Origin: Nakamurella sp. PAMC28650 | GTDB lineage: Bacteria > Actinomycetota > Actinomycetes > Mycobacteriales > Nakamurellaceae | Length of the DNA: 64,000 nt | Direction: 5' to 3' | NCBI RefSeq assembly: GCF_014303395.1 | Contig: NZ_CP060298.1 | Location: 3,057,001 to 3,121,000 of the forward strand | Shown here: piece by piece, positions 32,506 to 52,730 of the stretch | Position numbering within the stretch: position 1 is the stretch's first letter | Layout of the letters: each line of letters opens with the position of its first letter | The notes under the pieces: generated by a model | Told to the model about the DNA's origin: nothing | What the model saw: only the letters and a program-made list of their open reading frames with translations | Databases searched by the model: none | Program-made: the position numbers and the translations under genes

Positions 32506-33603
32506 TCAGAACGCCCACTGCTCGATCTCGGCGGGAGCCGGACGGGAGGCAACCGCGGCCGAGGACTCCAGAGCCCGATCCGTCAGCCGCATACGGACGA
32601 TGAAGCAGCTGCCTTCCCCGACGGCGCTGCGTACCGTCACCGAGCCCATGCCGGCTTCGGCGATCGCCTTGACGATCGGCAGCCCCAGCCCACTTCCGGC
32701 GCGGTCACCGGCGGTACTGGACGTCTTGAACATCTCGAAGATCCGCCCGAGATCCGCCTCCGGGATCCCGGCACCCGAGTCGGCGACGGACAGCACGAGC
32801 ATCCCTCCGTCCACCTCACAGGTGATCTCGATGGAGTCTCCCGGTTCGGTGAACTTGACCGCGTTCTCGAGCAGACAGTCCAGCGCCACCTCCAGACGTT
32901 CGGCGTCGGCCTCGACCGTGCCCGGCAGCGTGGCGGACGACCACTGTCGGTCGGCACTGCTGATCCAGCGGTGCAGAACGGCGTCGATCAGCAACTTGAC
33001 GTCGACCGTCATCCGGACGCTCGACTCGCTGACCGTGGCCAGGGTCAGCAGGCTGGTCACCAGTGACGAGGCCTTGTCCAGTTCGGCGATGACCAGTTCT
33101 GCGTCGGCCTCGATGGCCCGTCCGGGTTTCGCTGCGACGATCAGCTCGACGAAGCCCCGTGCGATCGTCAGTCTGGTGCGCACCTCGTGCGTCCCGAACT
33201 TGGAGCGGAGCTCGCGGCTGTGGGCGCTCTCCATTTCCTGCTGCTGCAGCCGGACCAGGGTCGCCCTGGTGGCTCGCTGGCGTTCCACGTGCCACATCAG
33301 GAGCGCGAGAATGACTCCCATCAGTACGATCTCGGAGCATTCGGTCCAGGCGATCTCCCTGGTCAGGCTGTGTTCGGCGAACGCCACCCCGGTCACGACG
33401 GTGATCACCCAGAAGGTGACCCAGGCCAGCCGGCGGGGCCACGGATAAAGCCCGTACAAGAATGCGAAGCTGGCCCAGATCAGGTGGTACGGGATGGTCT
33501 CCGCACCGGCCCACAGGAACGTCAGGTAGGCGTTGACCGCGGCGAACACCACCCAGGCGTAGGCCAACGGCCAATTAACACGCGACGAGTCGGTATCCGA
33601 CAT
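32506..33603 (-). CDS. Sensor histidine kinase (EnvZ/PhoR-type)
   Basis: 365 residues. Four membrane helices fill the first 110 residues, without a large periplasmic domain, so it likely senses within the membrane. The phospho-acceptor box is SKFGTHEVRTRLT; N box LLENAVKFT, G1 DSGAGIP, F box and G2 GSGLGLPIVKAIAE follow. The gene overlaps the response regulator's 3' end by 29 bp. ATG 33603 was chosen because earlier codons lie in the regulator. Confidence 0.93.
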   Translation of the reverse strand: MSDTDSSRVNWPLAYAWVVFAAVNAYLTFLWAGAETIPYHLIWASFAFLYGLYPWPRRLAWVTFWVITVVTGVAFAEHSLTREIAWTECSEIVLMGVILALLMWHVERQRATRATLVRLQQQEMESAHSRELRSKFGTHEVRTRLTIARGFVELIVAAKPGRAIEADAELVIAELDKASSLVTSLLTLATVSESSVRMTVDVKLLIDAVLHRWISSADRQWSSATLPGTVEADAERLEVALDCLLENAVKFTEPGDSIEITCEVDGGMLVLSVADSGAGIPEADLGRIFEMFKTSSTAGDRAGSGLGLPIVKAIAEAGMGSVTVRSAVGEGSCFIVRMRLTDRALESSAAVASRPAPAEIEQWAF

Positions 33604-34249
33604 TGCGCACCGTTTCGATTCGGCTGATGGTGAGTTTTGCGCGCAGGCGCCGCATGCACACGTCGACCACGTTGCTCCCGGGGTCGAAGCCCAGTCCCCA
33701 CACCTCTGAAAGGAGTTCCTGCCGGGTGCAGACGGCCGGGGTGCGGTGCAGTAGATGCGCCAGCAGCGCGAACTCGCGCTGGGAGAGATCGATCCGGCGG
33801 CCATTGATGATCAGCTCGCGCCGCTCGAGATCCAACTGCAGGCCCGCGCCGGTCAGATGGCGCCGAAGATCGTTGCCGCCCTGGTGATCCGGGCGCCGGA
33901 TCCGCGTCCGGATCCGCGCCATCAACTCGGCATTGGCAAATGGCTTGGCGAGGAAATCGACGGCGCCGTGGTCGAGCACGCCCACCCTCCTGACCAGGTC
34001 CGTGACGGAGGACAGCACCAGCACCTTGATCTCCGGGCGGGTGACCAGGAGTTCCCGCAGGACGTCCTCCCCGCTCATGTCCGGGAGCATCAGATCCAGG
34101 ATGACCAGGTCGAATTCGGTGGAGTTCCCCGGCTGGAGTGCGGAACGCCCGTCCGGCGCGGGAGTGACCGCATATCCCTCTGCCGTCAATAGCCTGGTCA
34201 ACAGGAGCAACAAATTCGGTTCGTCCTCGACGATGAGTACGCGATTCAT
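33575..34249 (-). CDS. OmpR/PhoB-family response regulator
   Basis: 224 residues. Receiver: MNRVLIVEDEPNLLLLLTRL, Asp in LVILDLMLPDMSGED, Lys in FLAKPF. The C-terminal winged helix has LSQREFALLAHLLHR, RQELLSEVW, SNVVDVCMRRLRAKL and VRNVGYRL. The gene lies downstream of CopCD on the same strand with 153 bp between, including a palindrome. Confidence 0.95.
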   Translation of the reverse strand: MNRVLIVEDEPNLLLLLTRLLTAEGYAVTPAPDGRSALQPGNSTEFDLVILDLMLPDMSGEDVLRELLVTRPEIKVLVLSSVTDLVRRVGVLDHGAVDFLAKPFANAELMARIRTRIRRPDHQGGNDLRRHLTGAGLQLDLERRELIINGRRIDLSQREFALLAHLLHRTPAVCTRQELLSEVWGLGFDPGSNVVDVCMRRLRAKLTISRIETVRNVGYRLVAC

Positions 34250-34342
34250 CTTTCCGCCTGGTGTAGAACGGTTGCGCCGGTCGGCGTTTTGTCACGCTGT
34301 GTCTATCATATCACGGCCGAATCGGGCGATAGGGACTATTCT

Positions 34343-34402: not shown

Positions 34403-36523
34403 CTATGTGGTGCTCCTTTGATGCAGCTGTGATGCCTCCAGGGTTTCCGGTCCATCCCGGTCCATCGCCGACTCTACGAAATCGGTGCCCGACGGGGCCC
34501 CTCGTTGCCGGCTGATCCGTACCCACCGGAGGGCGCCGCCCAGGAAACAGACGGTGAGGAAAAGGGCCAGCAGGTTGAGCTCACCGCCCCAGGGCTGATC
34601 GCTCAGGATGGGGGTGACCGGCCCACCAGGTCGACCGGCCGCGACCCAGTTCCGGTTCCAGACGGCGGGTGCCAGACCGGGCCGCCAGGCGGTGAGAACG
34701 ATTTGCCAGCGGCCGCTCTCGGTCACCGGGATGTCGCCCAGCTGCCATCGGTCGGAGTCGGCGATCCGAGCCAGCGGCCGCGCGGGGACGATCTGCCCGC
34801 CGGGGCCGGTCATCGCCAGCGTGACGTCGCTGATCCGGGCGCGGGCCGGACGCCGGGTGTCGTCGATGGTGACCCTGGCCCAGTTCTGACCCAGGGTGTT
34901 GGGCGAGAGGTCCAGGGTCAGCAGGAGACCGTCGACCTGGCTCACGATCGGGGTCTGCGCGTCGTGCGGGGACGGCGCGAACGCCGGCCCGCGCGGCGGT
35001 GAGCCGAGGCTCAGGGTGGCTGCTGCGCCCAGGATCAGCACCATGGTCAGGCCTTCTGCTGCGGCCCGCCGCGCGAACCTCTTGTTCACTGCCGCGCCAC
35101 CGACCCGATCTTCCCGTCGGCCGCCGGAAGCAGGACGTGGGCCCGCCGGGGTGGTCGGGCGGAACTGGAGGTAGCTCTTCAATCCGAGGAGGGCCGCGGC
35201 CCCGGTGAGAGCAACCTTGACCAGCAGGATGCGTCCGTACGCGCTGCTGATCAGAGCATCGGCGCTGGCCACCTGACGCGCTCCCAGGGCGACGCCGGTG
35301 ATCACCGTGAGCGCCACGCAGACCGCTGCGGGCGCGGCAAAGGCTCTGAGGACGAGGGCCAACTGCCGACGGAACGACACCTGGAATGCTGTGACGGCCA
35401 ACAGGAGAACCGAGCCGGCCCAACCGCAGGTGACAGCCAGATGGACCCCCAGCAGGGTGGCGGCGGCGGGACGGTCGGCACCGGAGGAGACGTGGCTGCC
35501 GACGGCCAGACCGATGACGGCACCGAGCGCGGCCAGCCAGGTCAGGGCTCGCCCTGTTCGTCGCCGTGGGTGCCTGCTCAGCAGGAAGACGAAGGTCAAC
35601 CCGGCCAGGTGGACCGACCAGAAGTGACCGAAGGAGGTGGAGGTCAGCACATGACCGACCTGACGCAGGTCGCCCGCCGCGTCGACGAGTACCGCAGCCG
35701 ATGTGATGATCGCGGCCCCCGCCGTCGCGTGGAAGACCCGGCCGCAGGTCTGCATCCAGCGGGCCCGGTCAGCGTCGTCCAGGTGTACGCGCGGCAGGGT
35801 GGCGACGCGCAGCAGCAGGGAACCGAGCATCAGGGCCAGCACGACGAGGTCGCTCCAGCGCAGCAGGCTGCTACCCGCCGCAGGCAGTTCTCCGGTCCGA
35901 TCGACGGCCGAGCGGCTGACCGCGAGTTCGACGCCGAAGACGATCGAACCCCTGCTCACGTGCAGATCGTCAGCCGACTGGACCTGCCAGTCCAACGCGA
36001 AGGCTCCCTGTCCCATCGGTGGCATGGAAGTGATCAGGGTCGTAGCCGGTCCGGTGCCGGAAGGACCGGCGACCACCATTGCGCGGGTCCCGGAATCGGA
36101 TCGGGCCAGCACCGTCCCCTGCGCCGAGTACAGCGTCAGACGAGCTGATTCCGGCAGGACCTGTTCGTCGAAGGTCAAGGTGACCGACGGCGGAGCGGCC
36201 AGCAGATCTGCGCCGTCCGTGGGGGAGCTGGACACCAGCAGCGCGTGGGCGCTCGCAGGGGTCGGGTTGAACATCATCGTCGCGACGGCCAGGACCAGCA
36301 CCGCGAGGGCCCGTCTGATGATCTGCTCCGCGACCGGACGCGAACCTTCGGTGGCGGCGTCGGCGGTCGCCTTGCCGGCCTTGGTCCGATACCGGTGCGG
36401 ACGCCCGACCACCCGCACCGGTACGGCGGACGCCCGGCCCACGACATCGAGGGGTCGAACTCCCTCCCGGGGCTCCGCGGTCACACGCGCCGCAGCGAGT
36501 GTGACGGCCTTGCTCTTGGACAT
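34403..36523 (-). CDS. CopC-CopD fusion with C-terminal YtkA-like domain
   Basis: 706 residues. A long Arg-rich N-terminus precedes a signal helix (ALAVLVLAVATMMFNPTPASA) and mature CopC starting AHALLVSSSPTDGADL, the first His being the usual Cu(II) ligand, with DLHVSRGSIVFGV as its last strand. Eight membrane helices of CopD follow. The last 170 residues hold an exported YtkA/FixH-like beta domain and a final helix. The family moves or buffers copper in the envelope. It is divergent from the multicopper oxidase operon. ATG 36523 has GAGGAAG upstream. Confidence 0.9.
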   Translation of the reverse strand: MSKSKAVTLAAARVTAEPREGVRPLDVVGRASAVPVRVVGRPHRYRTKAGKATADAATEGSRPVAEQIIRRALAVLVLAVATMMFNPTPASAHALLVSSSPTDGADLLAAPPSVTLTFDEQVLPESARLTLYSAQGTVLARSDSGTRAMVVAGPSGTGPATTLITSMPPMGQGAFALDWQVQSADDLHVSRGSIVFGVELAVSRSAVDRTGELPAAGSSLLRWSDLVVLALMLGSLLLRVATLPRVHLDDADRARWMQTCGRVFHATAGAAIITSAAVLVDAAGDLRQVGHVLTSTSFGHFWSVHLAGLTFVFLLSRHPRRRTGRALTWLAALGAVIGLAVGSHVSSGADRPAAATLLGVHLAVTCGWAGSVLLLAVTAFQVSFRRQLALVLRAFAAPAAVCVALTVITGVALGARQVASADALISSAYGRILLVKVALTGAAALLGLKSYLQFRPTTPAGPRPASGGRREDRVGGAAVNKRFARRAAAEGLTMVLILGAAATLSLGSPPRGPAFAPSPHDAQTPIVSQVDGLLLTLDLSPNTLGQNWARVTIDDTRRPARARISDVTLAMTGPGGQIVPARPLARIADSDRWQLGDIPVTESGRWQIVLTAWRPGLAPAVWNRNWVAAGRPGGPVTPILSDQPWGGELNLLALFLTVCFLGGALRWVRISRQRGAPSGTDFVESAMDRDGPETLEASQLHQRSTT

Positions 36524-36879
36524 CCGGGCTTCCTCACGTCGTGTCGACAGAATGAGGCGGATCGCCTTCCGGTCAGCATGGGACCTGACCGAGGTTTTGG
36601 CGTCGATTCTGACGAATTTGTCATTTGGCGCCGTGCAACCGACGGTGTCCCTCATGAACCCGGCCACCGGCGGGACCATAGTCGGTTTCCCCGGGTCAAT
36701 GCAATGTTCACCAAATAAGGTGAGTTACCTCTGGTGTTGGGTCGGTGACCAATAGTGATGTACCGATCTGGTAGATGACAGTTCCGTCAGAATGGGTGAC
36801 AAAGCCGATCTGCGGGTCCACGCTCACATCCCGAGGCAGAGTGCCTTATGTCAGATGGCTGAACCGTGAGGGACCTCGT
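36524..36879. promoter_or_regulatory. Divergent promoter region, CopCD / oxidase operon
   Basis: About 355 bp without a gene. Two overlapping dyads, TCACC-AAATAA-GGTGA (36708-36723) and AGGT-GAGTT-ACCT (36718-36730), lie in an AT-richer stretch and are the best operator candidates. Promoter hexamers could not be fixed. The upstream in-frame ATG at 36775 is not used because its codons do not look like a signal peptide. Confidence 0.45.
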
Positions 36880-42800: not shown

Positions 42801-43518
42801 CACCATCATCAACGACACCATCGCGAAGAACATCACGACTGCGACGGCGGTGACCAGCAACGGATCGGCTGCACCGGCCGGCATCTCCACCGCGCACAAC
42901 AGCGACCCGTTCCAGGCCACGCTGCCGGCCGGTAGTCCGACCTGGTCGAACCCGATCATCGCCAACGACATCGTCTACGACAACCGGGCCGGCTCGTGGA
43001 ACGCGTCGACCAGCAATGTCAGCGGCATTGGTCAGACCGGTGACGCCACTCCGCTCAATGTCTGGGACATCGGCATCGCCGACCCGGGTGCGGGGCTCCT
43101 GAGCCCGATCCATTCGGTGCTCAGCACCTCGCCCGGTGCTGCGGGCGGCGAGGGCTACACCGCCTCGCCGACCAACAGGGTCACCGCAGCACCGACGGTC
43201 GCCTCCGCCAACGCTCCAGGCTTCGCGGCCCCGTTCAGCCTGCAACTGGACATCACCCCGATGCGGATCAACTTCCGGTTCCGGGTGACCGCGATCGTCA
43301 ACATCGGGTTGCCCGCCAACAGCATCGGCGACTACCACATCGGCGCCACGTCACCCGCCGTGCTGCTCGGGGCCAACCAGCTGGCCCCCGGCGACATCAC
43401 AGCGCCGTTCAGCGGACCGATCTTCGCCCCCACGGTGGACATCGACGGTGTCTCCCGGTTCGACCCGCAGACCACCCAGCCCCGCATCGACGCCGGCGCG
43501 ACCCAGGCCCCCCGGTGA
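36880..43518 (+). CDS. Giant secreted scaffold protein: SdrD-like, TIG and beta-helix domains
   Basis: 2,212 residues from ATG 36880 (GTGAGGGAC upstream). A long signal peptide ends near TAASAAPS. About residues 530-640 form carboxypeptidase-regulatory/Cna-B-like strands (GSFQINGVPDGSYSVAVWD); about 650-710 is an SdrD-like block (CIDTNGNGRCDPGEAGVPHF) with the calcium-type Asp/Asn loop. About 1365-1450 is an IPT/TIG Ig-like domain. About 1700-2030 is a right-handed beta-helix with repeated NNxI, GGGI and NxI turns. No anchor motif or copper-ligand cluster is seen. It starts the oxidase operon and ends in TGATG. A structural or substrate-binding role is inferred. Confidence 0.9.
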   Translation: MTELGIRLRGGISRSTAPRRFPSLRRRPLRRPAAAVLALVLATSALTAIGGSTAASAAPSLSAAAPDPGFTSSGHPNPAADLSSCSTRAAGVLCVRAAQDSILPGAHNGGQGPGKNDPVPQFKWLLNKDNTGGVTLGADGRTPIAAEVTKCHPITSTFPNGNANYPNPVNTFDGTGPLLADGSPNPAACNWPSIHNITSSPVVSQGTQQDWNPTTPIPLQVGRAGRGLPNGKYLVSITSNGYQIGGGHFVVTDGKFSGLDTTPAGAVVVGLNPLPIPLSNIRLKVYGDMGATNAQWDEQSEFGLPGYDAHLTDFDGPVNVDYYNNPLCTAYRLNPDYDRVNHPDPTDSFYQVKLGLDARPIVDPAHHIRGNFEVAGPATGSCTSDSNGDILIPYMAPNRYGSSVIADQSSGTDPVTGQVMAPQQTCAVLSTKADAVTTATQAQACWVQTTTLEGNHDFDTWPQANSTGYDTELLVGGELVPQVQFGFVRAGCMANPATGTVDYQGLTDPTKWLSPADPACATVPQEPGAPAATGAIKGKIMGAAAYYPGLGGLTGANGQAGNAGTAGYKFDRPVKHPWVTLSDLNNGDKTVWASNANLDGSFQINGVPDGSYSVAVWDQMQDYIFDSFNVTVAGGKVVDLGVVPLLEWWTRITGHVCIDTNGNGRCDPGEAGVPHFLVQNLNRTNNAQEGGQNTDVTDQNGFYQFTEAYPLGYNDVIQAFNTRWKTTGMTWQACNDPQEHTTSTAAVDVQYNPVIAQCGRLDWAVQPYKGATTGPGDAAKTVKRSDNGGIVATVLYDAVRNRNLGRTQVQYDYFTGIPGVMTELFQPIRAAAGAPTTQSCPGGSTAPNVSFTGYLLNCDGSYHTATVTGGYSTAYKNGQVDSTDRFGAANPGTVNAYQSEHYGRATGCVARDANGKIISGSLGAGGKVTGTNSDGTTVTDFLPGLTVDPASPNPGHYTQACIEAPASAVNFGLGTDNLLLDPNVPTGATHGTQTVDGNFALTPTDASGAPVTGNFLAKVDIPGDKVLPQPTPGVDRPLYKVADETSNNNLAGSGLAPYTTDLGSTDTKNDGPGHASTPQFVPQNADLTNVYNQDGTLHTNLGASCPVLTAPGTTGTCVAFSFPSQAGPPSQTPIATPVTGGDSPTTQIEDPNTASPSADPQCAGSAYTVNVTDPGLLSAGGSMQQGNTRNSCDVHLIHVGGGQSVAPNFYLYTDVPIPTTFIVQNFDDTNLSTTKTETQYGDAAPIPNSPEGVYDWHGNLVDQMNIDPNGIAEALMPSTDVANCATPAGICQNIYRFVGNDPGTIDHPNFNYNPQFQTITANFQAMPGEFTPADTAPTRSALAFLNGGQKFTAAAQCAIAPTSPQLYSVDHPYGAPAAAVVIKGLGFGGTQGAGRVTLAGNGLTTPAVAGISSWSDTEIHASIPLGTPGGKYQLTITNDAKTATVNGISYYVIDGTYKPAILEVDPTLTAEATDQAGWTAQTKFPSIQEALERAAGYWLKPTAGNLVYTQVTDSQLPGAIVVVYPAAVTQQSPVNSAVTSGVWFEPVIIHSAVTLQGVGPGGVIPATAGNPATVVPGTVIDGRYYFGLTDNTVTPPAAIDWATAPQDVRAQHAVDIWQSIAGVLFPKTPGVDNKLITEGQNVTVLGQRDQPEYGPSAHPVLDGFGLQAAVTINTPANVNANTGQRTGPAGGADATQGGALFLNGHDDYTQVTNDVIDGNSGSYGAIRVGSPQLDAQHNWNVEFGNNQIVANGGNNLGGGMAIFNDAGGYNVHDNLICGNQSAEYGGGMSQYGLSIAPVTFTGTLSTDGKTLTWTGGGTAGPFTGADVGSSVAGDGLKGASIVSVQSPTSVTLSGVNDAGLFKAGFRYIPGTAARQTNVNVIAHNVVNLNQSQDEGGGIMIAGQLPADSTKPSLGAGPLNISGNTISVNAANDDGGGIRFLQAGNFPIRVENNSITNNVSSHEGGGIALDDTAQVTIINDTIAKNITTATAVTSNGSAAPAGISTAHNSDPFQATLPAGSPTWSNPIIANDIVYDNRAGSWNASTSNVSGIGQTGDATPLNVWDIGIADPGAGLLSPIHSVLSTSPGAAGGEGYTASPTNRVTAAPTVASANAPGFAAPFSLQLDITPMRINFRFRVTAIVNIGLPANSIGDYHIGATSPAVLLGANQLAPGDITAPFSGPIFAPTVDIDGVSRFDPQTTQPRIDAGATQAPR

Positions 43519-43555
43519 TGCCCGCGGACCCGGGCGGCGACGCCGATGGACCGCA

Positions 43556-43623
43556 CAGATCCGCCCTGCACAGATCCGCCCCGCACAGATCCGCCCCGCA
43601 AAGATCCGCCCTGCACAGATCCG
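43556..43623 (+). repeat. 15-bp tandem repeat array
   Basis: Four to five copies of CACAGATCCGCCCYG lie between the scaffold stop and the oxidase ATG at 43656. Period 15 keeps frame, so read forward from ATG 43518 it encodes HRSAL/HRSAP units and on the minus strand ADLCG/ADLCR units. Best regarded as an unstable spacer that may tune coupling between the genes. Confidence 0.85.
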
Positions 43624-43655
43624 CGCCGACGAGCAACGCAGAAAGGCAGCTCCCG

Positions 43656-45329
43656 ATGAGTGAAACACCGCCCGGCGCACCGTCACCCGCGCCGCACCCA
43701 GGGCAGACGGGCTGGATCAGGGCCGTTTCACGGCGGGCCCTGATCAGGTCGATGGTCGCAGCCTCGGCGGCCGGGGGCGTCCTGCTGCTCGGTCGGCCCG
43801 GCCCGTCCGGTGCCCGGTCGTCGGCGGCGTCGGCTGCGCCCGCGGGACCCACCGTGAAACTGGCGGCCGCCGCCGTGCCGGTGAAGGCATACACCCTGGC
43901 CGGGACGGACGGGTGGGTGTCGATGCCGGTCGGCGCGAATGCGATGCCGCCCTACTTCCCCGACAGCTTCGCTCCGCCGAACGGCAACAGCACCGGCGAT
44001 AAGCGGAAGGACCTGTTCACCACGTATGCGTTCGGGTTCCGCAACGTCAGCCAGTACAACCCGCCGACCGCGCCCGTCGGCGCCACCTCGCAGTTGCTGG
44101 TCGACAACGTGAAGAACCACGTGCAGATCTCGGCGCCGCTGATCTACGCGCAGGCCGGGCAGGACCTTCGGCTGACGTTGTTCAACCTGGGCATGGGCAA
44201 CCGCCCTGACCTGTTCGACAGCCACACCATCCACTTCCATGGCTTCGCCAACCAGATCGCCTACTTCGACGGGGTCCCGGATGCTTCCCTGTCGGTTCCC
44301 CCGGGGCAGTCCCTGCACTACCGGTACCTGCCGGTGGACGCCGGAACCTACATGTACCACTGCCATGTCGAGGACGTCGAGCACGTGCAGATGGGCATGA
44401 ACGGCATGGTGTTCATCGCGCCCCGCAAGGGCGTGAACTACGCCTACGACACACCGACCACCGCGGCCACGGACCCGGCGGTCACCACGCGATTCGACCG
44501 GCAGTTCTCCATCCACCTGTCCGAGATCTTCCCGCAGGGCCACTACGGCGACGCCCACATCCAGGACACCGACTGGACCGACTTCACCGGCTACTTCCGG
44601 CTGATGAACGGCCGGGCCTGGCCGGACACGGTCAAACCGCACGCCGGGGACTATCCGACGGGCGCGCCCGGCGATCCGGACGCCGCGGTTCCAACTACCA
44701 CCGACCCGGTGGACGGCAAGCGGCTGCGGTTCCAGCCGCTGTCGTCGTTGATCCAGGGGGAGAGCGGTGAGTACGTCCTGGTGCGGGTGTCGCACCTCGG
44801 GTACGAGCAGCACTCGCTGGTGCTGGAAGGGTTGCCGATGACGGTGATCGGGCAGGACGCCAAGTTCCTGGGCGCCGGCCGGGCCGGCTACTACGGCGAC
44901 TACCAGTACGGGAAGAACGGCGATCCGCTGGCCGCCCAGCGGGTGCCGGATCCGCCGCGCGGCAACGCCGAGACGCTGACCAACCGGGTCGACCTGGGGC
45001 CGGGGGAGAGCCGCGATCTGCTGATCGGCCCGCTGCCGTCCGTCTCGGCAGTGACCGTCTTCCCGTTCTACGACCGGGAGTTCGGTTACCTGAACGGAGG
45101 CGACAACACCTCCGGCTACGGCGGGATGCGCACCGAAGTACACGTGCACCCCAAGGGCGGCCTGACCCGCCCCAGCGCCGCGGAACTCGCCCTCCTGACC
45201 AAGGGCGCCGACTCCACCACGCTGGACCTCGGCGGCAACCTCTTGAACAACTTCGCGGGTGCCAACGGAACGTGGACCTACGCCGACGGCAACCCGATCG
45301 TGCAGGCCTTCCCCGGCAAGCTCTACTGA
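43656..45329 (+). CDS. Tat-exported multicopper oxidase with complete type 1 copper motif
   Basis: 557 residues from ATG 43656 (AAAGG upstream). The Tat signal is SRRALIRSMVAASAAGG. Cupredoxin motifs: HTIHFHG near residue 190 and YHCHVEDVEHVQMGMNGM near 232-250, the latter holding Cys-His-Met of a type 1 site inside the first domain, as in two-domain oxidases. A later GYEQHSLVLEG gives further His. The usual C-terminal HPxHxH and HCH pair of three-domain laccases is not found, so the trinuclear site is incomplete in this chain alone. ATG 43518 overlapping the previous stop is an alternative start. Confidence 0.9.
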   Translation: MSETPPGAPSPAPHPGQTGWIRAVSRRALIRSMVAASAAGGVLLLGRPGPSGARSSAASAAPAGPTVKLAAAAVPVKAYTLAGTDGWVSMPVGANAMPPYFPDSFAPPNGNSTGDKRKDLFTTYAFGFRNVSQYNPPTAPVGATSQLLVDNVKNHVQISAPLIYAQAGQDLRLTLFNLGMGNRPDLFDSHTIHFHGFANQIAYFDGVPDASLSVPPGQSLHYRYLPVDAGTYMYHCHVEDVEHVQMGMNGMVFIAPRKGVNYAYDTPTTAATDPAVTTRFDRQFSIHLSEIFPQGHYGDAHIQDTDWTDFTGYFRLMNGRAWPDTVKPHAGDYPTGAPGDPDAAVPTTTDPVDGKRLRFQPLSSLIQGESGEYVLVRVSHLGYEQHSLVLEGLPMTVIGQDAKFLGAGRAGYYGDYQYGKNGDPLAAQRVPDPPRGNAETLTNRVDLGPGESRDLLIGPLPSVSAVTVFPFYDREFGYLNGGDNTSGYGGMRTEVHVHPKGGLTRPSAAELALLTKGADSTTLDLGGNLLNNFAGANGTWTYADGNPIVQAFPGKLY

Positions 45330-45340
45330 TGAGGCGCCCG

Positions 45341-46996
45341 ATGAAATCTCAGCACCGTGTGGCCGGCGCCGTCCGCTCCCTGGGGGGCCGCGCGCTCGGC
45401 GGCCGTCGTGCGCTCCGTCGCCAGGTCCCGGTCGCAGTCGCGGTCCTGCTGGCGGCGATGTTCACTCCGCTGGCCGCCGGATCGGCCGCCGCGGCGACAC
45501 CGACGGCGCAGGCCGAGGGCTTGGTCTGCGCGGCCGGTTCCACCGCCGATTTCCGCAACCCGACCAAGGTCGCAACGAACGGCGCGATACCCACGCACCC
45601 GGGCTTCGTGCTGACCGCCCAGGACGGCTACATCACCACCCCGGACGGCAACTCCATCTACATGTGGGGCTACGCCGCCGGCGGGGGCTCCTACCAGGAC
45701 CCCGGGCCGGTGTTGTGCGTGAACGAGGGCGACACCGTCACCATCACCCTGGCCAACACCCTGCCGGTGGCCACGTCGATCCAGTTCCCGGGCCTGACCG
45801 GTGTGATGGCCAACGGCACACCTTCGCAGCCCGATGCCGCCACCAACTCGGTGGCCACCCCGGCCGCGGCGGAACCGGGCTCGGTGCCGAACGCCAGCGA
45901 CCCGGGCAAGGCGACGAAGGTGACCTACACGTTCGTCGCCGACCACCCCGGCACCTTCCTCTACGAATCTGGCACCGACCCGCAGCTGCAGGTGCAGATG
46001 GGCCTGGTCGGTGCGATCGTCGTTCGCCCGAAGCTCGGCAACCCGTGCCTGTCGCCCACGTCCCTCGACGGAAAAGTGCCCGCCGGCACGGTGTGCACGC
46101 CGTCCGCCCACGTCTACGACGATGCGGGCGCCACCCCGGGCATGGCGACTGATCCGACCAGTTGCGCGGTCCCGGCCGGCGGGCTGGCCTGCTTCTCGAC
46201 GTTCAACCCGACCAAGGAATACCTGCACGTGCTGAGCGAGATCGACCCGATGGTGCACTCAGCGATGGAGTCACCCGGGTCGCCGGGCGTTTACAGCTAC
46301 GACATGACCACCTACAAGGCCCGGTACTTCTTCATCAACGGGCGCAGCTTCCCCGACACCGTCTCGCCCAACTTCGCCGCCCACATCCCGTCTCAGCCCT
46401 ACGGCGCGCTGGCGCACATCCAGCCCCGCAACACCCAGCGGTACCTGACCGGTACGACGCCGAACCCCGACTACAACCCGGACTCTGCGCTGATCCGGTA
46501 CCTGAACACCGGTCCGGTCGACTACCCGTTCCACCCGCATTCCAACAACGAACGCCAGATCGGGTTCGATGCGCACCCGATGATCAACAACACCGCCGCG
46601 GCCACGCCGACCGACGTGTCCATCGACCGCTACTCGGTCGTCGTCCCGCCCGGGTCGACCATCGAGACCGAGTTCGCGTGGGTGGACCAGGCCAACTGGA
46701 ACCCGGCCACCCACCCGGTCGATAGCGGCGACCCCGGCACCGTCCCCGTTCCGGAGCAGCAGGCCAGGACCGAGGGCCAGTACTGGTCCGGCTCGCCCTA
46801 CCTGGGCTGGCAGAACGACCTGTCCACCGGCAAGACCCAATTCAACGAGTGCGGCGAGATGTACCAGGTCGCGCACAGTCATGCGCTGTTCCAAGCCACC
46901 AACTACGGCGCCTCGATGGGCGGAATGCTCACCATGATCCGGATCGACCCGCCTAACTCGTTCGCCGAACACGCCCACTGCACGACAGGGAACTGA
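45341..46996 (+). CDS. Cupredoxin-fold multicopper oxidase-like protein with partial ligand set
   Basis: 551 residues from ATG 45341 (GAGG at 6 nt); ATG 45329 in TGATG is also possible. Sec signal RRQVPVAVAVLLAAMFTPLA to AAAAT. The first domain keeps the fold but not the ligands: SIQFPGL replaces the HxHG motif and YESGTDPQLQVQMGLVG replaces HCHxxxHxxM. The last domain keeps DYPFHPHSNNERQIG near residue 394 and AHSHALFQATNYGASMGGM near 512, with Ser in the place of the type 1 Cys. It therefore has the half-set missing from the previous protein. Confidence 0.87.
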   Translation: MKSQHRVAGAVRSLGGRALGGRRALRRQVPVAVAVLLAAMFTPLAAGSAAAATPTAQAEGLVCAAGSTADFRNPTKVATNGAIPTHPGFVLTAQDGYITTPDGNSIYMWGYAAGGGSYQDPGPVLCVNEGDTVTITLANTLPVATSIQFPGLTGVMANGTPSQPDAATNSVATPAAAEPGSVPNASDPGKATKVTYTFVADHPGTFLYESGTDPQLQVQMGLVGAIVVRPKLGNPCLSPTSLDGKVPAGTVCTPSAHVYDDAGATPGMATDPTSCAVPAGGLACFSTFNPTKEYLHVLSEIDPMVHSAMESPGSPGVYSYDMTTYKARYFFINGRSFPDTVSPNFAAHIPSQPYGALAHIQPRNTQRYLTGTTPNPDYNPDSALIRYLNTGPVDYPFHPHSNNERQIGFDAHPMINNTAAATPTDVSIDRYSVVVPPGSTIETEFAWVDQANWNPATHPVDSGDPGTVPVPEQQARTEGQYWSGSPYLGWQNDLSTGKTQFNECGEMYQVAHSHALFQATNYGASMGGMLTMIRIDPPNSFAEHAHCTTGN

Positions 46997-46997
46997 C

Positions 46998-49900
46998 ATG
47001 ACGATCTGGTCTTCGAATTCGACGAGCGACGCCTTCCCGCCGGTCCCTGCCCGACCCGTGAGTGGCCGTTGGCCCCGCCGGGTCATGGCGTTGGTGGTGA
47101 CCACCTGCCTGATGACGCTGGCGTTGGTGGTGCTGCCCGCCACCGCCCAGGCGGCCACCCCGACGGTCGCACTCACCGCGGCGGTCACGCCGGGCAACCC
47201 GGCGGTGGCGTTCACCGCCACCGTCGGGAGCAACGCCGTGGGTGACACCGCTTACCTGTGCTTCGGTGACGAGGCGCCCGTCCTGTGTGACGCCGCCACG
47301 GCGGGCACAGCGGTCGACATGACCACCGCCACTGCCGTCGGAGGCGCAGCAGTGAGCCACACCTACGCCAAGGAAGGCACCTTCTCGGCGGTGCTCTACG
47401 AGGTGTCGGGCACCACGGTGACCGCGTCATCACCCAGCGCCGTCGTCGTCACCATCGACGGCACCGCACAGCTCACCGCTACCGCCACCGGCCTGACCGC
47501 CGTACTGGACGGTTCCGCCTCCACTGCCGCGGTCGCTACGGACACCTGGTGGGCCTGTTTCGGGGAACACCTAGCGTGCAGCGCCACCGCACCTGACCTC
47601 TCCGGCACCGTCGGCGTCAACGGGCCGCCGCTCAACAAGGTGAGCCACATCTACGCCAAGCCGAGCGCCGCAGCCGGGTATCCAGCCGGGTATCCAGCGA
47701 GTCTGACCGTCGTCGGGACCGCGGTGAGCAGTACCGTCTCGCTGCCGGTTCTGGTGAACTTCCCGGACCCGACCGCGATCCTGACCGCCGACAGCGTGAC
47801 CGGTACCGGGATCCTGCCGGTGATCTTCTATGGGAACCAGTCTTCGGTCAGCACCGGGGACAGCTGGGGGTTCTGCTTCGGCGACGTCCCGGGTTGCTCG
47901 GCGACCACCCCCGACCAGTCCGGGTCGATCAGTGGAGCGACCCCGACCGTCGCCTTGACCGGCACCCACACCTACCTGCCGGGGAACTACACCGCAGCCC
48001 TGTGGGTGAGCAAGCCCGGCTCCACGACCAGCACGGCGACCCTCGCGATCACCGTCGGCAATCCGGTCGCCGCACCGGACGGGACCTGTGCGCTGAGCGG
48101 GATCATCCGCACCTGCGACCTGTACGCCAAAGCCAACGGCACCGTCACCGCGGGCCCGGACACCATCAAGTTCTGGGGGTTCACCACGTCTGACACCGCG
48201 ACGCCGGTGCTGGGCGGCCCGACCCTGATCGCCACCGAAGGGGAGAAGCTCGCCTTCACCGTCCACAACCAACTCGATCCCAGGGCCGGCAACGTCGCGA
48301 TCACCGTGCCCTCGCTGGCCGGCGCACCAGACCTGATCGGGGTTGCAACCGGCGCCGCCGGCGGGTCCGGCTCGTTCACGCTGACCCGGCCGGGTACCTA
48401 CGTCTACGAGGCCGGCCTGACCTCCGGCGGCGCCCGGCAGGTCGCGATGGGCCTGTCCGGAATGCTGATCGTGCGGCCTTCGGTGGTACTCACCTCTGCC
48501 AACTCGGCCCACTGCGCCTACGACGGGGCCGTCAACGTCGATTGTCTGGCCAACAAGGACACCCGGAACTACTACGACCGGGAGAAGGTCGTCAAGGTCG
48601 ACGAACTGGATGCGGCCTTCACCGCAGACCCGTTCGGCTCCGACACCGGCGACTACCACCCGACGAACTACTTCGTCGACGGCGTCGCCTACGACTCGGC
48701 GAAGGCGGCGCTGGACCCGGCCGCCCCGGCCTTCAACGCCGCCGTCAACAGTGTCCGGTTGGACGCGTCGCCCGGCGACAGTGTGCTGCTGCGCTACGCC
48801 GACCTGGGGCTGCGGGAACACTCGATGAACCTGCTCAACCTGGTGCAGACCGAAACCGCCCGGGATGCGAACGTGCTGCCCAACGTCACCGTGCAGAGCA
48901 CCGAGTTCCTCAATGCCGGGCAGACCGCGGACACCTTCCTGGTCATCCCGCCGGGTGCGGTCACCGGCACGAGGTATCCGCTCTACGACGCCGGCATGCA
49001 CCTGAACAATGGCGCCACCGGGGGGCTGGGCGGTCTCTACACGTACCTGAACGTGGTCAACGGGACGAGCGCCGCCGATATCGGCCCGGTCGGCACCGCC
49101 GCATCCGTCGTGCCGACCTTCACCGGGTCGGTCCCGAACATCGACAACGGGCAGGTGCCCACCCTGACGGTCGCGGCGACGTTCAAGGCGCAGACCGCTG
49201 GGGCGTCGGTCAGCTCCGTGCAGTGGTCCCTGGACGTGCCCTCACCCGACAGCCTGTGGCAGCCTTCCGGGGCGGCCATCCCGGCCGGCAGCGCCACCGC
49301 AACGGTGCCGTTCACCATCGACCGGTCCACACTGACCCAGCAGCTGGGCATCGAACCGGACCGGATCTTCGGCGAGCACACCATCTGGTTGCAGGCCATG
49401 GATTCGAACGGCAAGGTGGGCCCGGTCGTCGGGGCGAGTTTCTCCCTGGCGATGCGCGATGCAGTGATCTCCACCCTGGCGATCAATCCGCAGGTCACCA
49501 ACGGCACCACCCGGTCCAACCAGTTCCCGGTCGCCTCCACCAAGATCTCCGCGCCGTCGAACGAGGTGAACGTGCCGGCATCGGTGATCTACGTCAACTC
49601 GACCGCCGGGTTCCCCGGCACCTGCGACACCGGGGGATGCCTGATCACCGTCGCGACAACCATCGCCGACGGCCCGGCCCAGGGCGACCTGGTCTACCAG
49701 ACGTTCACCTACACGGGACTCGGCGCGAACACCCAGCCCAACGGTCCCAGTTTCAACGGGGTCAGGATCGTCACGCCGGTGCCCCGCAACACCTATCTGT
49801 TCGACGCGGGCAACACGGTGGCCCTGGACGTCGTACCGGCCGGCTACATCGCACTCAACGCCACCGCCACGTCGTCACTGCCAGGCTGGGTCGTGGAAGG

Positions 49901-51431
49901 CGCGCAGGCCTGCGTGGTCTACGCACCCGGCGCCGTCCCGGGCCCGGCCGACCAGGTCGAGTCCAAGTGCAACCCCGGCAACAAGAAGGTGGTCACCGAG
50001 CTGAACGTGAACGCCGTCGATTCGCTGGTCGCGGTCAACGGGTTCCTGCCGCCGCCCCGACTGCCCGACGGGATCAACAACGCCGCCAACTTCTGGGTGA
50101 TGGTCCGCGCCCTGGAAGGCCCCGACGGCACCGACTGCATCGCGACGGCCGTCGCGTGCCGGTACAGCCCGTGGCTCTACTACCACCCGGTCACCACCAC
50201 CACGACCACCACCCGTGATCTGGCCCAGGACAACATCCCTGTCGTCAGCACCCTCGGATTCCCCAGCCGCGGCCAGCTGACCGCGACGACCACCGCACAC
50301 CAGATCGCCACGGTGAACTACTACGGCATCAATCCGACCAGGCTCCTGACGAACAACGGCGGCGCAGTCCCTGGCACCCTGGCAACGGGCACGCTGGTCA
50401 CCGGCTCGGCCGCCGGCCCGGACACCTACCAGACCCTGACCCTGGTCAAGGCCGGCCCGCAGACCACCCTGCTCTCGGCAACGCCGAACCCGAACAACGG
50501 ATTCGACGCTGCCGCCGGCAATCTCGGGCTGTTCGACTCCTTCGACGTGCAGGCGACCGCTACGTCCAAGTGGGCCGCCATCGCACTTGCCGAGGCTTTC
50601 GTCGCACCGACCAGCCGAGCCAGGGGCGCAGCTGCGCCTGCTCTGCGCCGGTGCAGCGTGAAGCCGAACATCCCGGCCGGTTGTGTGATCTTCGGCCAGG
50701 GCGCGGAAATGGCGCCGGCAGACGGTCTGTGGGGCAACAGTTCGAGCAAGGTCGTGACGGCCTTCCTCCCGCTGTCGCTGCTCCAGGGCATGCCCGACGG
50801 CCTGGTCCGGGTCTGGGTCCACGCCAAGGACATCGCCGGGAACTGGGGTCCGTTCGAGGCCGTCGACCTGATGCTCGACCGCACCGCACCGATCCTCGAC
50901 TCGGCCACCAACACCGCCCCCGCAGGGGCTGCCACCACGACCACCGCTGCGGCCACGCTACCCATGGTCGGGACGTCGCCGACCCTCGCACTGACGTCGG
51001 TCACCGGTTTCCCGAGGTCCGGCGGCTTCGTGGCGGTGACGACCTCGACCGGGGTGCAGGTGCTCACCTACACCGGCATCACCGCGAAGACGTTGACCGG
51101 GGTCACCGGCGGCACGGCCGCCACCATCGCGGCCGGAGCGCCGGTGGCAGCATTCACCGGCACGGCCTCCGTCCGTACGCACGACGTCAACAGCACGGCG
51201 ACCGGGCTGGTGTCCTCCGGCGTGGCCTCGGCCGAATGGTTCGTCGGTCCCGATCCCGGTCCCGGCAACGGGACCAAGGCCGTCACCATCCCGGTGGCCC
51301 TGCCCCCGTCGAAGAACAGCCCAACCGTCCTCACGTTCTCCATCACCGGCCTGCCGGTGGGCAAGACCGTATCCATCCGGGTGGTCGACGCGGCCGGGAA
51401 CTGGAGCGCGGTGACCACGGTGGTGATGTAG
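46998..51431 (+). CDS. Large exported PKD/cupredoxin-like protein of oxidase operon
   Basis: 1,477 residues; ATG is one base after the preceding stop (TGACATG). Signal helix RVMALVVTTCLMTLALVVLPATAQA. Residues about 40-370 are PKD-like Ig repeats (SHTYAKEGTFSAVLYE, SHIYAKPS, THTYLPGNYTAALWV). Residues about 385-690 are two cupredoxin-like domains without canonical ligands: TYVYEAGLTSGGARQVAMGLSG at the HCH position and LREHSMNLLNL near 605 retaining one His. The rest is Ig-like beta repeats, ending with DRTAPILDSATN-type and VVDAAGNWSAV strands. Probably an extracellular structural subunit of the same complex. Confidence 0.82.
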   Translation: MTIWSSNSTSDAFPPVPARPVSGRWPRRVMALVVTTCLMTLALVVLPATAQAATPTVALTAAVTPGNPAVAFTATVGSNAVGDTAYLCFGDEAPVLCDAATAGTAVDMTTATAVGGAAVSHTYAKEGTFSAVLYEVSGTTVTASSPSAVVVTIDGTAQLTATATGLTAVLDGSASTAAVATDTWWACFGEHLACSATAPDLSGTVGVNGPPLNKVSHIYAKPSAAAGYPAGYPASLTVVGTAVSSTVSLPVLVNFPDPTAILTADSVTGTGILPVIFYGNQSSVSTGDSWGFCFGDVPGCSATTPDQSGSISGATPTVALTGTHTYLPGNYTAALWVSKPGSTTSTATLAITVGNPVAAPDGTCALSGIIRTCDLYAKANGTVTAGPDTIKFWGFTTSDTATPVLGGPTLIATEGEKLAFTVHNQLDPRAGNVAITVPSLAGAPDLIGVATGAAGGSGSFTLTRPGTYVYEAGLTSGGARQVAMGLSGMLIVRPSVVLTSANSAHCAYDGAVNVDCLANKDTRNYYDREKVVKVDELDAAFTADPFGSDTGDYHPTNYFVDGVAYDSAKAALDPAAPAFNAAVNSVRLDASPGDSVLLRYADLGLREHSMNLLNLVQTETARDANVLPNVTVQSTEFLNAGQTADTFLVIPPGAVTGTRYPLYDAGMHLNNGATGGLGGLYTYLNVVNGTSAADIGPVGTAASVVPTFTGSVPNIDNGQVPTLTVAATFKAQTAGASVSSVQWSLDVPSPDSLWQPSGAAIPAGSATATVPFTIDRSTLTQQLGIEPDRIFGEHTIWLQAMDSNGKVGPVVGASFSLAMRDAVISTLAINPQVTNGTTRSNQFPVASTKISAPSNEVNVPASVIYVNSTAGFPGTCDTGGCLITVATTIADGPAQGDLVYQTFTYTGLGANTQPNGPSFNGVRIVTPVPRNTYLFDAGNTVALDVVPAGYIALNATATSSLPGWVVEGAQACVVYAPGAVPGPADQVESKCNPGNKKVVTELNVNAVDSLVAVNGFLPPPRLPDGINNAANFWVMVRALEGPDGTDCIATAVACRYSPWLYYHPVTTTTTTTRDLAQDNIPVVSTLGFPSRGQLTATTTAHQIATVNYYGINPTRLLTNNGGAVPGTLATGTLVTGSAAGPDTYQTLTLVKAGPQTTLLSATPNPNNGFDAAAGNLGLFDSFDVQATATSKWAAIALAEAFVAPTSRARGAAAPALRRCSVKPNIPAGCVIFGQGAEMAPADGLWGNSSSKVVTAFLPLSLLQGMPDGLVRVWVHAKDIAGNWGPFEAVDLMLDRTAPILDSATNTAPAGAATTTTAAATLPMVGTSPTLALTSVTGFPRSGGFVAVTTSTGVQVLTYTGITAKTLTGVTGGTAATIAAGAPVAAFTGTASVRTHDVNSTATGLVSSGVASAEWFVGPDPGPGNGTKAVTIPVALPPSKNSPTVLTFSITGLPVGKTVSIRVVDAAGNWSAVTTVVM

Positions 51432-51483
51432 CGGCGTCACGGTAGATCCGGCCAAATCCCAGTCAGAGCAAAGAGATGAACAG

Positions 51484-52077
51484 ATGAGCACAACCCAGGT
51501 CCACGACCTGACCGAGCAGGAACCAGTACCGGACCAGGCGGTGGTCGAGCCGGATCGCACAGTCGTGGGCGGCCGACCGGGCCGTCGGAACCGGCGCCGG
51601 CTGCTGATCTCCGTGGTCGCGCTCGTGGTCGTCGCTGTGGCCATCGTCGGGGTCCGGATCGGCTCGGAGGACACCGCACCCCGGGCGGCCGTCGTCTCCG
51701 TCGCCCACCCGGCCGCGCCGGTGCCGACCAACGCGGCGGTCGAGGCGGCCTGGGGCATCCGGTTCACCAACGTGATCGTGCTGGCGGACAACGGCGGTGT
51801 GGAGTTGCGCTACCAGGCCCTCGACGACACCACGTCGGCCAAGATCCACGAGGGCAACGCGACCTCGAACGAACTGCCCAGCATCACCGTGGACGGCACG
51901 AATTCATCTGTCGCACCCAGCGCGGTCCTGATGCACTTCCATCATGGCGACATCACCACCGGCCGCACGTATTCGATCATCTACGGCAACGCCGGGGGAG
52001 TCGTGACCGTCGGCGAGTTCGTCACGATCGTCATGAAAGACGGTCTGAAGATCGAACACATCGAAGTGTCGAATTGA
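51484..52077 (+). CDS. Membrane-anchored small protein with MHFHHGD motif
   Basis: 197 residues. A charged cytoplasmic N-terminus (about 40 residues) is followed by one membrane helix (LLISVVALVVVAVAIVGV). The exported domain of about 120 residues is beta-rich and includes VLMHFHHGDITTGRTYSIIYG, whose His cluster could bind copper or another metal. No family is recognised. Its place after three oxidase-like genes suggests a membrane tether or small copper subunit, loosely comparable to the small MnxE/MnxF subunits of the Bacillus manganese oxidase; this is inference. Confidence 0.72.
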   Translation: MSTTQVHDLTEQEPVPDQAVVEPDRTVVGGRPGRRNRRRLLISVVALVVVAVAIVGVRIGSEDTAPRAAVVSVAHPAAPVPTNAAVEAAWGIRFTNVIVLADNGGVELRYQALDDTTSAKIHEGNATSNELPSITVDGTNSSVAPSAVLMHFHHGDITTGRTYSIIYGNAGGVVTVGEFVTIVMKDGLKIEHIEVSN

Positions 52078-52097
52078 GTGAAAGGGCGAAACTCCGG

Positions 52098-52730
52098 ATG
52101 AACGCGGTGAAACGGCCCCGGTCGAGATGTCGATTGATACCAATGGTGCTGGCCATGGGATGTATCGCATGGTCGACGGCGTGCACCTCCCAGGCTGTTC
52201 CGGGACCGCAGCCACCGGTCCAGGCCGCCGCGGTTTCCGGTCCGGCCTCCGGGGCACCGGCGCCGGCGAATGCCGATACGGGCCCGTTGACCCTCCGGAG
52301 CACGGCCTTTCCCGCCGACGGGCTGATTCCGGTGAACTTCAGCTGTGCGGGCGACAACACGTCACCGCCGCTGACGTGGCACGGCGCCGCTCCGGTCGGC
52401 ACCACCACGTGGGCGATCGTCCTGCAGGACCTGGACGTCAAGCCCGGTCCGTGGATCCAGTGGATGGTGACCGGAATCCCGGTGGCCACCCGCAGCCTGG
52501 CGGCGGGCCAGGTCGCAGCAGGCTCCGTCGCCCGAAGAGCGAGCAACAGCACCGCGGGCTTCGTCGGGATGTGCCCACCGTCTGGGACGGTCCACCACTA
52601 CCGCTTCACCGTCTATGCCGACGGTGGACCGCAGTCCGTTCCAGTGGCTGCCGGTCCCCAGCAGGTGTTGAAGGCGATCGAAACGGGCGCCGTCGGAACG
52701 GCCTCTCTGGACGGCACCTTCGCGCGCTGA
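52098..52730 (+). CDS. PEBP-family (YbhB/YbcL-like) exported protein
   Basis: 210 residues from ATG 52098 (AAAGGG upstream). The N-terminus MVLAMGCIAWSTACTSQ looks like a lipoprotein or signal sequence. The PEBP core shows LTLRSTAFPADGLIPVNFSC, NTSPPLTWHGAAP, DLDVKPGPWIQWMVTGIP (DPD-like and GxxxHW-like ligand loops, with Gln for His) and HHYRFTVYAD. Bacterial PEBPs are of unknown role, though some inhibit peptidases. Last gene of the oxidase operon, starting 20 bp after the previous stop. Confidence 0.87.
   Translation: MNAVKRPRSRCRLIPMVLAMGCIAWSTACTSQAVPGPQPPVQAAAVSGPASGAPAPANADTGPLTLRSTAFPADGLIPVNFSCAGDNTSPPLTWHGAAPVGTTTWAIVLQDLDVKPGPWIQWMVTGIPVATRSLAAGQVAAGSVARRASNSTAGFVGMCPPSGTVHHYRFTVYADGGPQSVPVAAGPQQVLKAIETGAVGTASLDGTFAR

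Follow-up and report, generated by a model that had tools for sequence, protein, structure and literature searches.

A putative multicopper oxidase of Nakamurella whose copper ligands appear to be divided between two proteins of one operon

In two-domain multicopper oxidases (MCOs) the ligands of the trinuclear copper cluster (TNC) come from two protomers of a trimer (PMC13151041). The six-domain MCOs, with one TNC, are thought to have descended from three two-domain units, and in the bacterial ones, which are single chains, the type 1 (T1) copper lies in domain 2 and domains 2 and 3 have the TNC between them (PMC3600357). Here we describe an operon in a 64,000-nucleotide stretch (the window) of the 5.63-Mb single-contig genome of Nakamurella sp. 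PAMC28650, in which a gene for a giant exported scaffold is followed by three genes for two-domain cupredoxin proteins (MCO1, MCO2 and MCO3) that are paralogous by sequence. Ligand conservation, co-occurrence and gene order, compact two-gene versions and a single-chain fusion strongly support one copper oxidase with its ligands split over two complementary chains. As judged from sequence, the operon very probably makes an extracytoplasmic heteromeric two-domain MCO, likely of 1:1:1 composition, with one TNC at the interface of MCO1 and MCO2.

The ligand names and their assignment to the T1 site and the TNC come from an alignment with complete MCOs and from general knowledge of the family. Domain 1 of MCO1 contains the motifs HTIHFHG (H190, H193 and H195) and HCHVEDVEHVQMGM (H235, C236, H237, H243 and M246/M248), of which H190, C236, H243 and M246 or M248 make up the T1 set and the four histidines H193, H195, H235 and H237 the domain 1 (D1) half of the TNC, while inspection of the sequence found no domain 2 (D2) ligand pair in MCO1. 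Neither ligand motif is present in domain 1 of MCO2, and its domain 2 carries FHPHS (H398 and H400) and AHSHALF (H512 and H514), where Ser occupies the position of the T1 Cys. These motifs and their coordinates had been given in a preliminary description of the locus and are confirmed here, as is the coupling of the genes that it reported: the TGA stop of MCO1 overlaps an in-frame ATG at 45329 (TGATG), so that MCO2 may start there and not at 45341, and a single base separates the MCO2 stop from the ATG of MCO3. By ligand count, a homotrimer of MCO1 or of MCO2 alone could hold no TNC.

Relatives were collected from the genome of the window and 40 related ones (41 in all) and from a contig collection scanned with an MCO1 alignment and the peptide patterns GTYMYHC and DVEHVQM. 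Among the 41 genomes, G032 contains a copy of the operon that is 80% identical, besides two operons paralogous to it, and G001 has one paralogous operon; the remaining matching genomes gave only short, weak matches of the general oxidase type. From the 322 related stretches returned by the scan we retained the best 80, most of which belong to Actinomycetota and Chloroflexota, and which include a Dormibacteraeota and a Methylococcaceae metagenome-assembled genome. Together with the window and the four loci of G032 and G001 they form a set of 85 loci, in which counts are not independent events because some of the 80 come from near-identical species. Retrieval with these patterns is biased towards H235/C236 and parts of the T1 loop; H190-H195, H237 and the MCO2 ligands are free of this bias.

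Across the aligned loci the T1 His/Cys/His of MCO1 is kept in 85/85 and the four TNC histidines in 84/85; residue by residue, H190, H193, H195, C236, H237 and H243 are each found in 85/85 and H235 in 84/85. For MCO2, H398 and H400 are each conserved in 82/82 loci (two gapped rows aside) and H512 and H514 each in 81/81 (three gapped rows aside), and the residue between the latter two is S in 40 rows, N in 40 and V in one, never Cys. No T1 Cys occurs in the aligned rows of MCO2 or MCO3. The full set, that is the T1 His-Cys-His and four D1 His of MCO1 with the four D2 His of MCO2, is present in 80 of the 81 loci in which all positions are visible, the sole exception having Leu in place of one MCO1 TNC His, and the complementarity first noticed in the window is thus retained in its relatives. 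Stray HxH pairs in three C-terminal parts of MCO1 and five N-terminal parts of MCO2 lie off the ligand positions, as judged by eye.

When aligned with three complete single-gene two-domain MCOs, MCO1 fills the four D1 TNC columns and MCO2 the four D2 TNC columns, each in 13/13 rows plus 6/6 rows of a gamma/beta type; a TNC set is found in none of the 17 MCO3 rows (0/17), one of which has an isolated His in one D1 column. Ten copies of MCO1 were found by profile instead of by pattern, in eight newly sampled genomes plus one extra copy in G332, and HxxHxH, HCH and the T1 His are kept in all of them (10/10). The MCO2 ORFs (open reading frames) examined whole in the profile-found genomes contain both HxH pairs in 8/8 cases, and in G099, where MCO2 lies in pieces on three contigs, the pieces hold one HxH pair each. 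In these alignments the complementarity of MCO1 and MCO2 is exact across the eight TNC columns and is not chance.

In the window the scaffold, MCO1, MCO2, MCO3, a small membrane protein and a PEBP form a plus-strand run from 36775 to 52730, and the conserved unit starts at 36775, upstream of the region first delimited (43656..52730); the preliminary description had included neither the scaffold gene nor the divergent CopC-CopD gene. With one profile per gene, the order scaffold-MCO1-MCO2-MCO3-small protein on a single strand is found in 62/85 loci. One further locus (L060) has the first four genes in order and a small-protein match upstream on the opposite strand, and the other 22 miss one or more terminal genes. 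All of these are truncated by the end of the available DNA or start less than 450 nt from it, except L040 (no scaffold match within 2.0 kb upstream) and L053 (no small-protein match within 0.9 kb downstream). Taken singly, a scaffold homologue is present in 79/85 loci, the MCO1 ORF starting less than 450 nt from the locus start in five of the other six; the MCO3-core profile matches 80/85, the other five ending less than 180 nt past the last gene found; and the small membrane protein is found in 67/85, with 17 of the other 18 ending no more than about 180 nt from the last gene found. In L085 MCO2 is split into two ORFs mid-locus, and in L031 the scaffold and MCO3 are spread over several overlapping ORFs. 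None of the 85 loci has MCO1 and MCO2 in one ORF, and every untruncated locus has three separate genes; this layout, together with the Tat motif on MCO1, rules out a frameshift or assembly artefact of a single long gene. The inclusion of a third, ligand-poor cupredoxin protein in the unit, also proposed before, is borne out by the 80/85 loci with MCO3, and an HxH pair is absent from the MCO3 cupredoxin pair of all 80 homologues (0/80).

Co-conservation across genomes had been suggested as a check, and it is observed. In the class of the window, six of 296 genomes have MCO1 and the same six have MCO2 (E <= 1e-20); in Chloroflexota, the phylum of G332, five of 201 genomes have strong matches to both (best per genome >560 bits); and in the class of G333, which is the Methylococcaceae genome and so presumably of the Gammaproteobacteria, seven of 274 do (MCO1 at least 155 bits, MCO2 at least 183 bits). 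Over the three samples, which contain the source genomes G000, G332, G334 and G333, strong MCO1 and MCO2 matches co-occur in 18 genomes, and no genome has a strong match to only one of them. Weak matches in the Chloroflexota sample come from a complete MCO (G400, MCO2 profile only) and a fusion (G520, both profiles in a single ORF). In the class of G333, weak matches (68-87 bits) were obtained in eight genomes with the MCO1 profile and nine with the MCO2 profile, two being in both; of those examined, G634, G657, G617 and G772 have compact gene pairs and G726 a complete two-domain MCO, the other genomes on the two lists being G545, G579, G671, G784, G570, G571, G580, G614, G709 and G758. Mirror-tree correlations over 77 loci (r = 0.92 for MCO1-MCO2, 0.85 for MCO1-MCO3 and 0.87 for MCO2-MCO3) fit a common history and are no evidence of contact.

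The same partition is also found in other gene arrangements. Compact pairs of two-domain genes of 312-340 aa divide the ligands in the same way in four genomes of the G333-class sample, one of them with reversed order. In three of the four pairs the T1-bearing partner has no signal peptide and the other partner starts with a Tat motif (by eye), as if the two were exported together. A single ORF of 764 aa in G520 joins an A-like half with the T1 and D1 ligands, a B-like half with the D2 ligands and a C-terminal cupredoxin-like domain, and has four MCO-type cupredoxin domains. In Paraburkholderia, Cupriavidus metallidurans CH34, G774 and G636, MCO1 and MCO2 are followed by a single gene that encodes a cupredoxin pair joined to the scaffold, suggesting that MCO3 is tied to the scaffold; G748 has the same gene order, its third ORF having a scaffold match only.

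A tree of 68 rows contains separate clades of MCO1 (19 rows, 100/100), MCO2 (19 rows, 91/91) and MCO3 (17 rows, 95/90), with MCO2 adjoining MCO3, and the scaffold-fused pairs of Paraburkholderia, G774 and G636 group within the MCO3 clade. Elsewhere in the tree, among complete two-domain MCOs, lie the compact pairs and the halves of the fusion. The split may therefore have arisen more than once, although the rooting is insecure.

In Pfam, MCO1 scores 46.7 and 43.5 bits and MCO2 35.3 and 20.4 bits against Cu-oxidase_2/_3 (cut-offs 21 and 20.4); the multicopper oxidase score of MCO3 is 13.1 bits, below the cut-off of 21, and none of the three reaches a cut-off in NCBIfam. For the predicted folds of MCO1 and MCO2, the top-ranked two-domain matches in Foldseek are two-domain MCOs. 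For comparison, the Nitrosomonas europaea blue copper oxidase 3g5w (TM-scores of 0.51/0.70 with MCO1) and the metagenomic laccase 2zwn are of type C. Type C enzymes resemble the present proteins in having two cupredoxin domains and the T1 site in the N-terminal domain (here in MCO1 only), but the known ones carry all ligands in each chain, whereas here four are in D1 of MCO1, four in D2 of MCO2 and none in MCO3. The six-domain MCOs (ceruloplasmin, hephaestin and MnxG) share the sum of six cupredoxin domains and the single set of four plus four His, seen here in 80/81 loci, but are single chains and not the product of three genes, and the T1 site would here lie across the interface from that described for the bacterial six-domain enzymes. 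With neither all ligands in each chain nor six domains in a single chain, MCO1, MCO2 and MCO3 differ from both families, and we place them with the two-domain MCOs as an unusual form. Copper nitrite reductase (NirK) was considered as an identity and is ruled out by the four D1 and four D2 TNC histidines and by the NCBIfam Cu_nitrite_red model, whose cut-off is 296 bits and with which MCO1 scores 41.

Several known copper oxidases involve more than one gene product. The mnx operon of Mn(II)-oxidizing Bacillus encodes a multi-subunit copper oxidase (MnxE3F3G) whose MCO needs partners; only mnxG encodes an MCO, and MnxE and MnxF, of ~12 kDa, are without known homologues (PMC5622069). Compared by description, the one MCO gene of that operon contrasts with the three cupredoxin paralogues here, and the parallel with Mnx-type manganese oxidases drawn in the preliminary description extends to a functional likeness and no further. 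The bacterial iodide oxidase IoxA/IoxC is reported to be multimeric, with two or more gene products in it, but IoxA holds all four copper-binding regions (PMC9415286), in contrast to the division between MCO1 and MCO2. Likewise, the fungal POXA3 laccases are called heterodimeric, but the large subunit is the laccase and the small one an accessory protein (PMC3129051). In the open-licence literature, judged by titles and the starts of abstracts, we found no paper describing a TNC shared by two gene products.

Based on these similarities, MCO1, MCO2 and MCO3 could assemble like a homotrimeric two-domain MCO, with one copy of each and each D1 facing the D2 of its neighbour. The interface between D1 of MCO1 and D2 of MCO2 would then be the only one of the three to bind the three TNC coppers, because the other two, which would involve MCO3, would bring together a D1 and a D2 that both lack ligands, in keeping with the ligands observed, and be structural. 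Electrons from the substrate would enter at the T1 copper of MCO1 and reach the shared TNC by way of the HCH bridge, and O2 would be reduced to water there. Electron transfer through haem finds no counterpart, as CxxCH is absent from 79 scaffold, 85 MCO1, 84 MCO2 and 80 MCO3 ORFs. The Tat motif (R26 R27 in the window protein) is matched by pattern in 82/85 MCO1 proteins, the misses being one near-match and two cut sequences, and in 9/84 MCO2 proteins, so that export of the two partners seems to follow separate routes: MCO1 may be exported folded via Tat, MCO2 and MCO3 via Sec, and the subunits may join outside. MCO3 might link the enzyme to the giant scaffold, as the Burkholderiales fusion suggests, and CopC-CopD might help the copper supply.

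For the substrate, a possible clue is an acidic loop beside the T1 site. E239, D/E240 and E242 of MCO1 are each kept in 85/85 loci, partly favoured by the fetch patterns, and the E239-D/E240-x-E242 loop is kept in 10/10 of the profile-found copies. D240 aligns with the Asp of the ceruloplasmin motif HCHVTD, a residue that lines the iron site. By ceruloplasmin homology, the high-affinity iron site of hephaestin is described as three acidic residues and one His (PMC3738974). As the loop adjoins the T1 site, a metal ion, Fe(II) or Mn(II), is favoured as the likeliest single substrate class, an assignment that we make tentatively. The fullest version of the proposal, an obligate 1:1:1 heterotrimer equivalent to a ceruloplasmin split in three genes, with a TNC only at the interface of two of the products, mounted on a giant exported scaffold and oxidizing Fe(II) or Mn(II), is a more doubtful suggestion. 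It would be a class of MCO not described before, and the compact two-gene forms, being separate, would then mean that a TNC was split more than one time.

Several points speak against this picture. The acidic loop is not universal, being replaced by HCHVEA in one group of the gammaproteobacterial sample and by HCHITPPEH in a Burkholderiales group; in the main set the use of DVEHVQM as a fetch pattern accounts for part of its conservation, and no gene adjoining the operon names a substrate or points to Fe or Mn. By Foldseek E-value, the top row for MCO1, ahead of 3g5w, is the three-domain ascorbate oxidase 1aoz (TM-scores of 0.48/0.40). Co-occurrence of operon genes has many possible causes, and both the meeting of the MCO1 and MCO2 ligands, from homology, and the place of MCO3 in a 1:1:1 ring are matters that we infer. 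In the available DNA no third MCO-type pair accompanies the compact pairs or the fusion, which means either that there are other stoichiometries or that these forms do not make such a ring.

The strongest alternative keeps the heteromer and changes the substrate to an organic compound (phenols or quinols) or Cu(I), and we consider it only slightly short of probable: the presence of CopC-CopD in the flanks of 34/61 eligible loci would fit copper handling and the gamma/beta-type groups do without the acidic T1 loop, but the retention of the three acidic positions in the main group and the profile-found copies, and the alignment of D240 with the ceruloplasmin Asp, favour a metal ion. Rather unlikely is a shared TNC in a ring other than 1:1:1, with MCO3 only an adaptor for the scaffold and MCO1 and MCO2 in another stoichiometry. 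Although MCO3 seems dispensable to the compact pairs and to the fusion, and the MCO3-like pair forms the scaffold N-terminus in the Burkholderiales-type loci, MCO3 is found in all 80 loci long enough to show it, adjoins MCO2 in the tree and has lost the ligands of both domains, as expected of a ring-filling subunit. That MCO1 and MCO2 act separately, MCO1 as a homotrimeric T1 carrier (perhaps T1 plus T2, nitrite-reductase-like) and MCO2 as a non-catalytic copper-binding protein, is very improbable, for although both proteins have nitrite reductases among their best fold matches and half a TNC could in principle bind one type 2 copper, MCO1 keeps all four D1 TNC histidines including HCH and MCO2 its four D2 histidines, a third His from domain 2 of MCO1 (at the H386 position) occurs in only 45/85 loci, and co-occurrence and the single-chain fusion argue for one enzyme.

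In the accepted scheme of MCO evolution, two-domain trimers gave rise to six-domain single chains such as ceruloplasmin, and a heterotrimer in which a single active site survives would be intermediate between the two. The operon looks like a living example of that intermediate, its three paralogous genes having been passed on together across phyla. Although widespread, with 322 related stretches in a single genome collection, the family could readily be mistaken for three odd or inactive oxidases, since no chain has a full set of ligands by itself. It allows a direct test of whether a catalytic metal cluster can require that two exported proteins, which apparently leave by different routes, come together outside the cytoplasm. 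It may also carry out metal oxidation outside the cell in Actinomycetota and Chloroflexota.

The remaining components vary in their conservation. In the scaffold, IPT-like and beta-helix-like regions were judged by eye, and the N-terminal repeats of MCO3 have a weak PKD match, below cut-off. MCO3 has long N- and C-terminal extensions, and its ORF length varies widely among relatives. The membrane-anchored protein with MHFHHGD, proposed before as a component, does belong to the unit, but its HFHH motif is present in only 2/67 relatives and is rejected as a copper site. The PEBP, likewise listed as a component, is dropped as a subunit, with matches in 2/85 loci (the window and L015) to a model built from those two, by which distant PEBPs could be missed. 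Coordinates of all features are collected in Table 1.

Table 1. Positions of the operon, its copper ligands and neighbouring genes in the window, and of related arrangements in other loci (coordinates of the named locus).
Feature	Position	Strand	Basis
Sensor histidine kinase, possible regulator; neighbour outside the core	32506..33804	-	Pfam HATPase_c
CopC-CopD fusion, accessory, putative copper supply; divergent from the operon	34403..36679	-	Pfam CopC, CopD
Exported scaffold, 2247 aa	36775..43518	+	Pfam SdrD_B; CarboxypepD_reg below cut-off
MCO1, two-domain cupredoxin; T1 site and domain-1 half of TNC	43656..45329	+	motifs, Pfam, fold
MCO1 ligands H190 (T1), H193 and H195 (TNC)	44223..44240	+	alignment
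MCO1 ligands H235, C236, H237, H243, M246/M248; acidic loop E239, D240, E242	44358..44399	+	alignment
MCO2, two-domain cupredoxin; domain-2 half of TNC, without T1 Cys	45329..46996 (start given as 45341)	+	
MCO2 ligands H398, H400	46532..46540	+	alignment
MCO2 ligands H512, H514, flanking Ser513	46874..46882	+	alignment
MCO3, N-terminal repeats, ligand-less cupredoxin pair, long C-terminal extension	46998..51431	+	
MCO3 cupredoxin-pair core	48063..49157	+	profile seeded from segment
Small protein, one apparent transmembrane segment (by eye); last operon gene	51484..52077	+	
PEBP (YbhB-like), outside the conserved core	52074..52730	+	Pfam PBP
Compact two-gene locus	L179 8255-10268	-	
Compact two-gene locus	L180 7775-9840	-	
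Compact two-gene locus	L181 7360-9352	+	
Compact two-gene locus	L182 7807-9826	-	
G520 single-chain fusion (same ORF as in L129)	L183 572-2866	-	
MCO3-type pair fused to giant scaffold, Burkholderiales-type locus	L099 11754-19026		
MCO3-type pair fused to giant scaffold, Burkholderiales-type locus	L176 12321-19001		
MCO3-type pair fused to giant scaffold, Burkholderiales-type locus	L178 3045-11096		

Among the neighbours, the frequency of CopC-CopD homologues in the flanks fits a need for copper outside the membrane, and 37 of the 40 members of the CopC-CopD BLAST cluster lie downstream on the same strand. A Pfam scan of positions 33522-34295 gave no match. A single-linkage cluster of flanking kinases spans 42 loci, one representative of it being matched in 12/61 eligible loci, and a beta-galactosidase gene lies downstream of the operon in the window. 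A subtilisin-like S8 protease is encoded in the flanks of 24 loci (e.g. L047, 18329-20629), more than half of them titled Chloroflexi or Anaerolineae, and might possibly process the scaffold.

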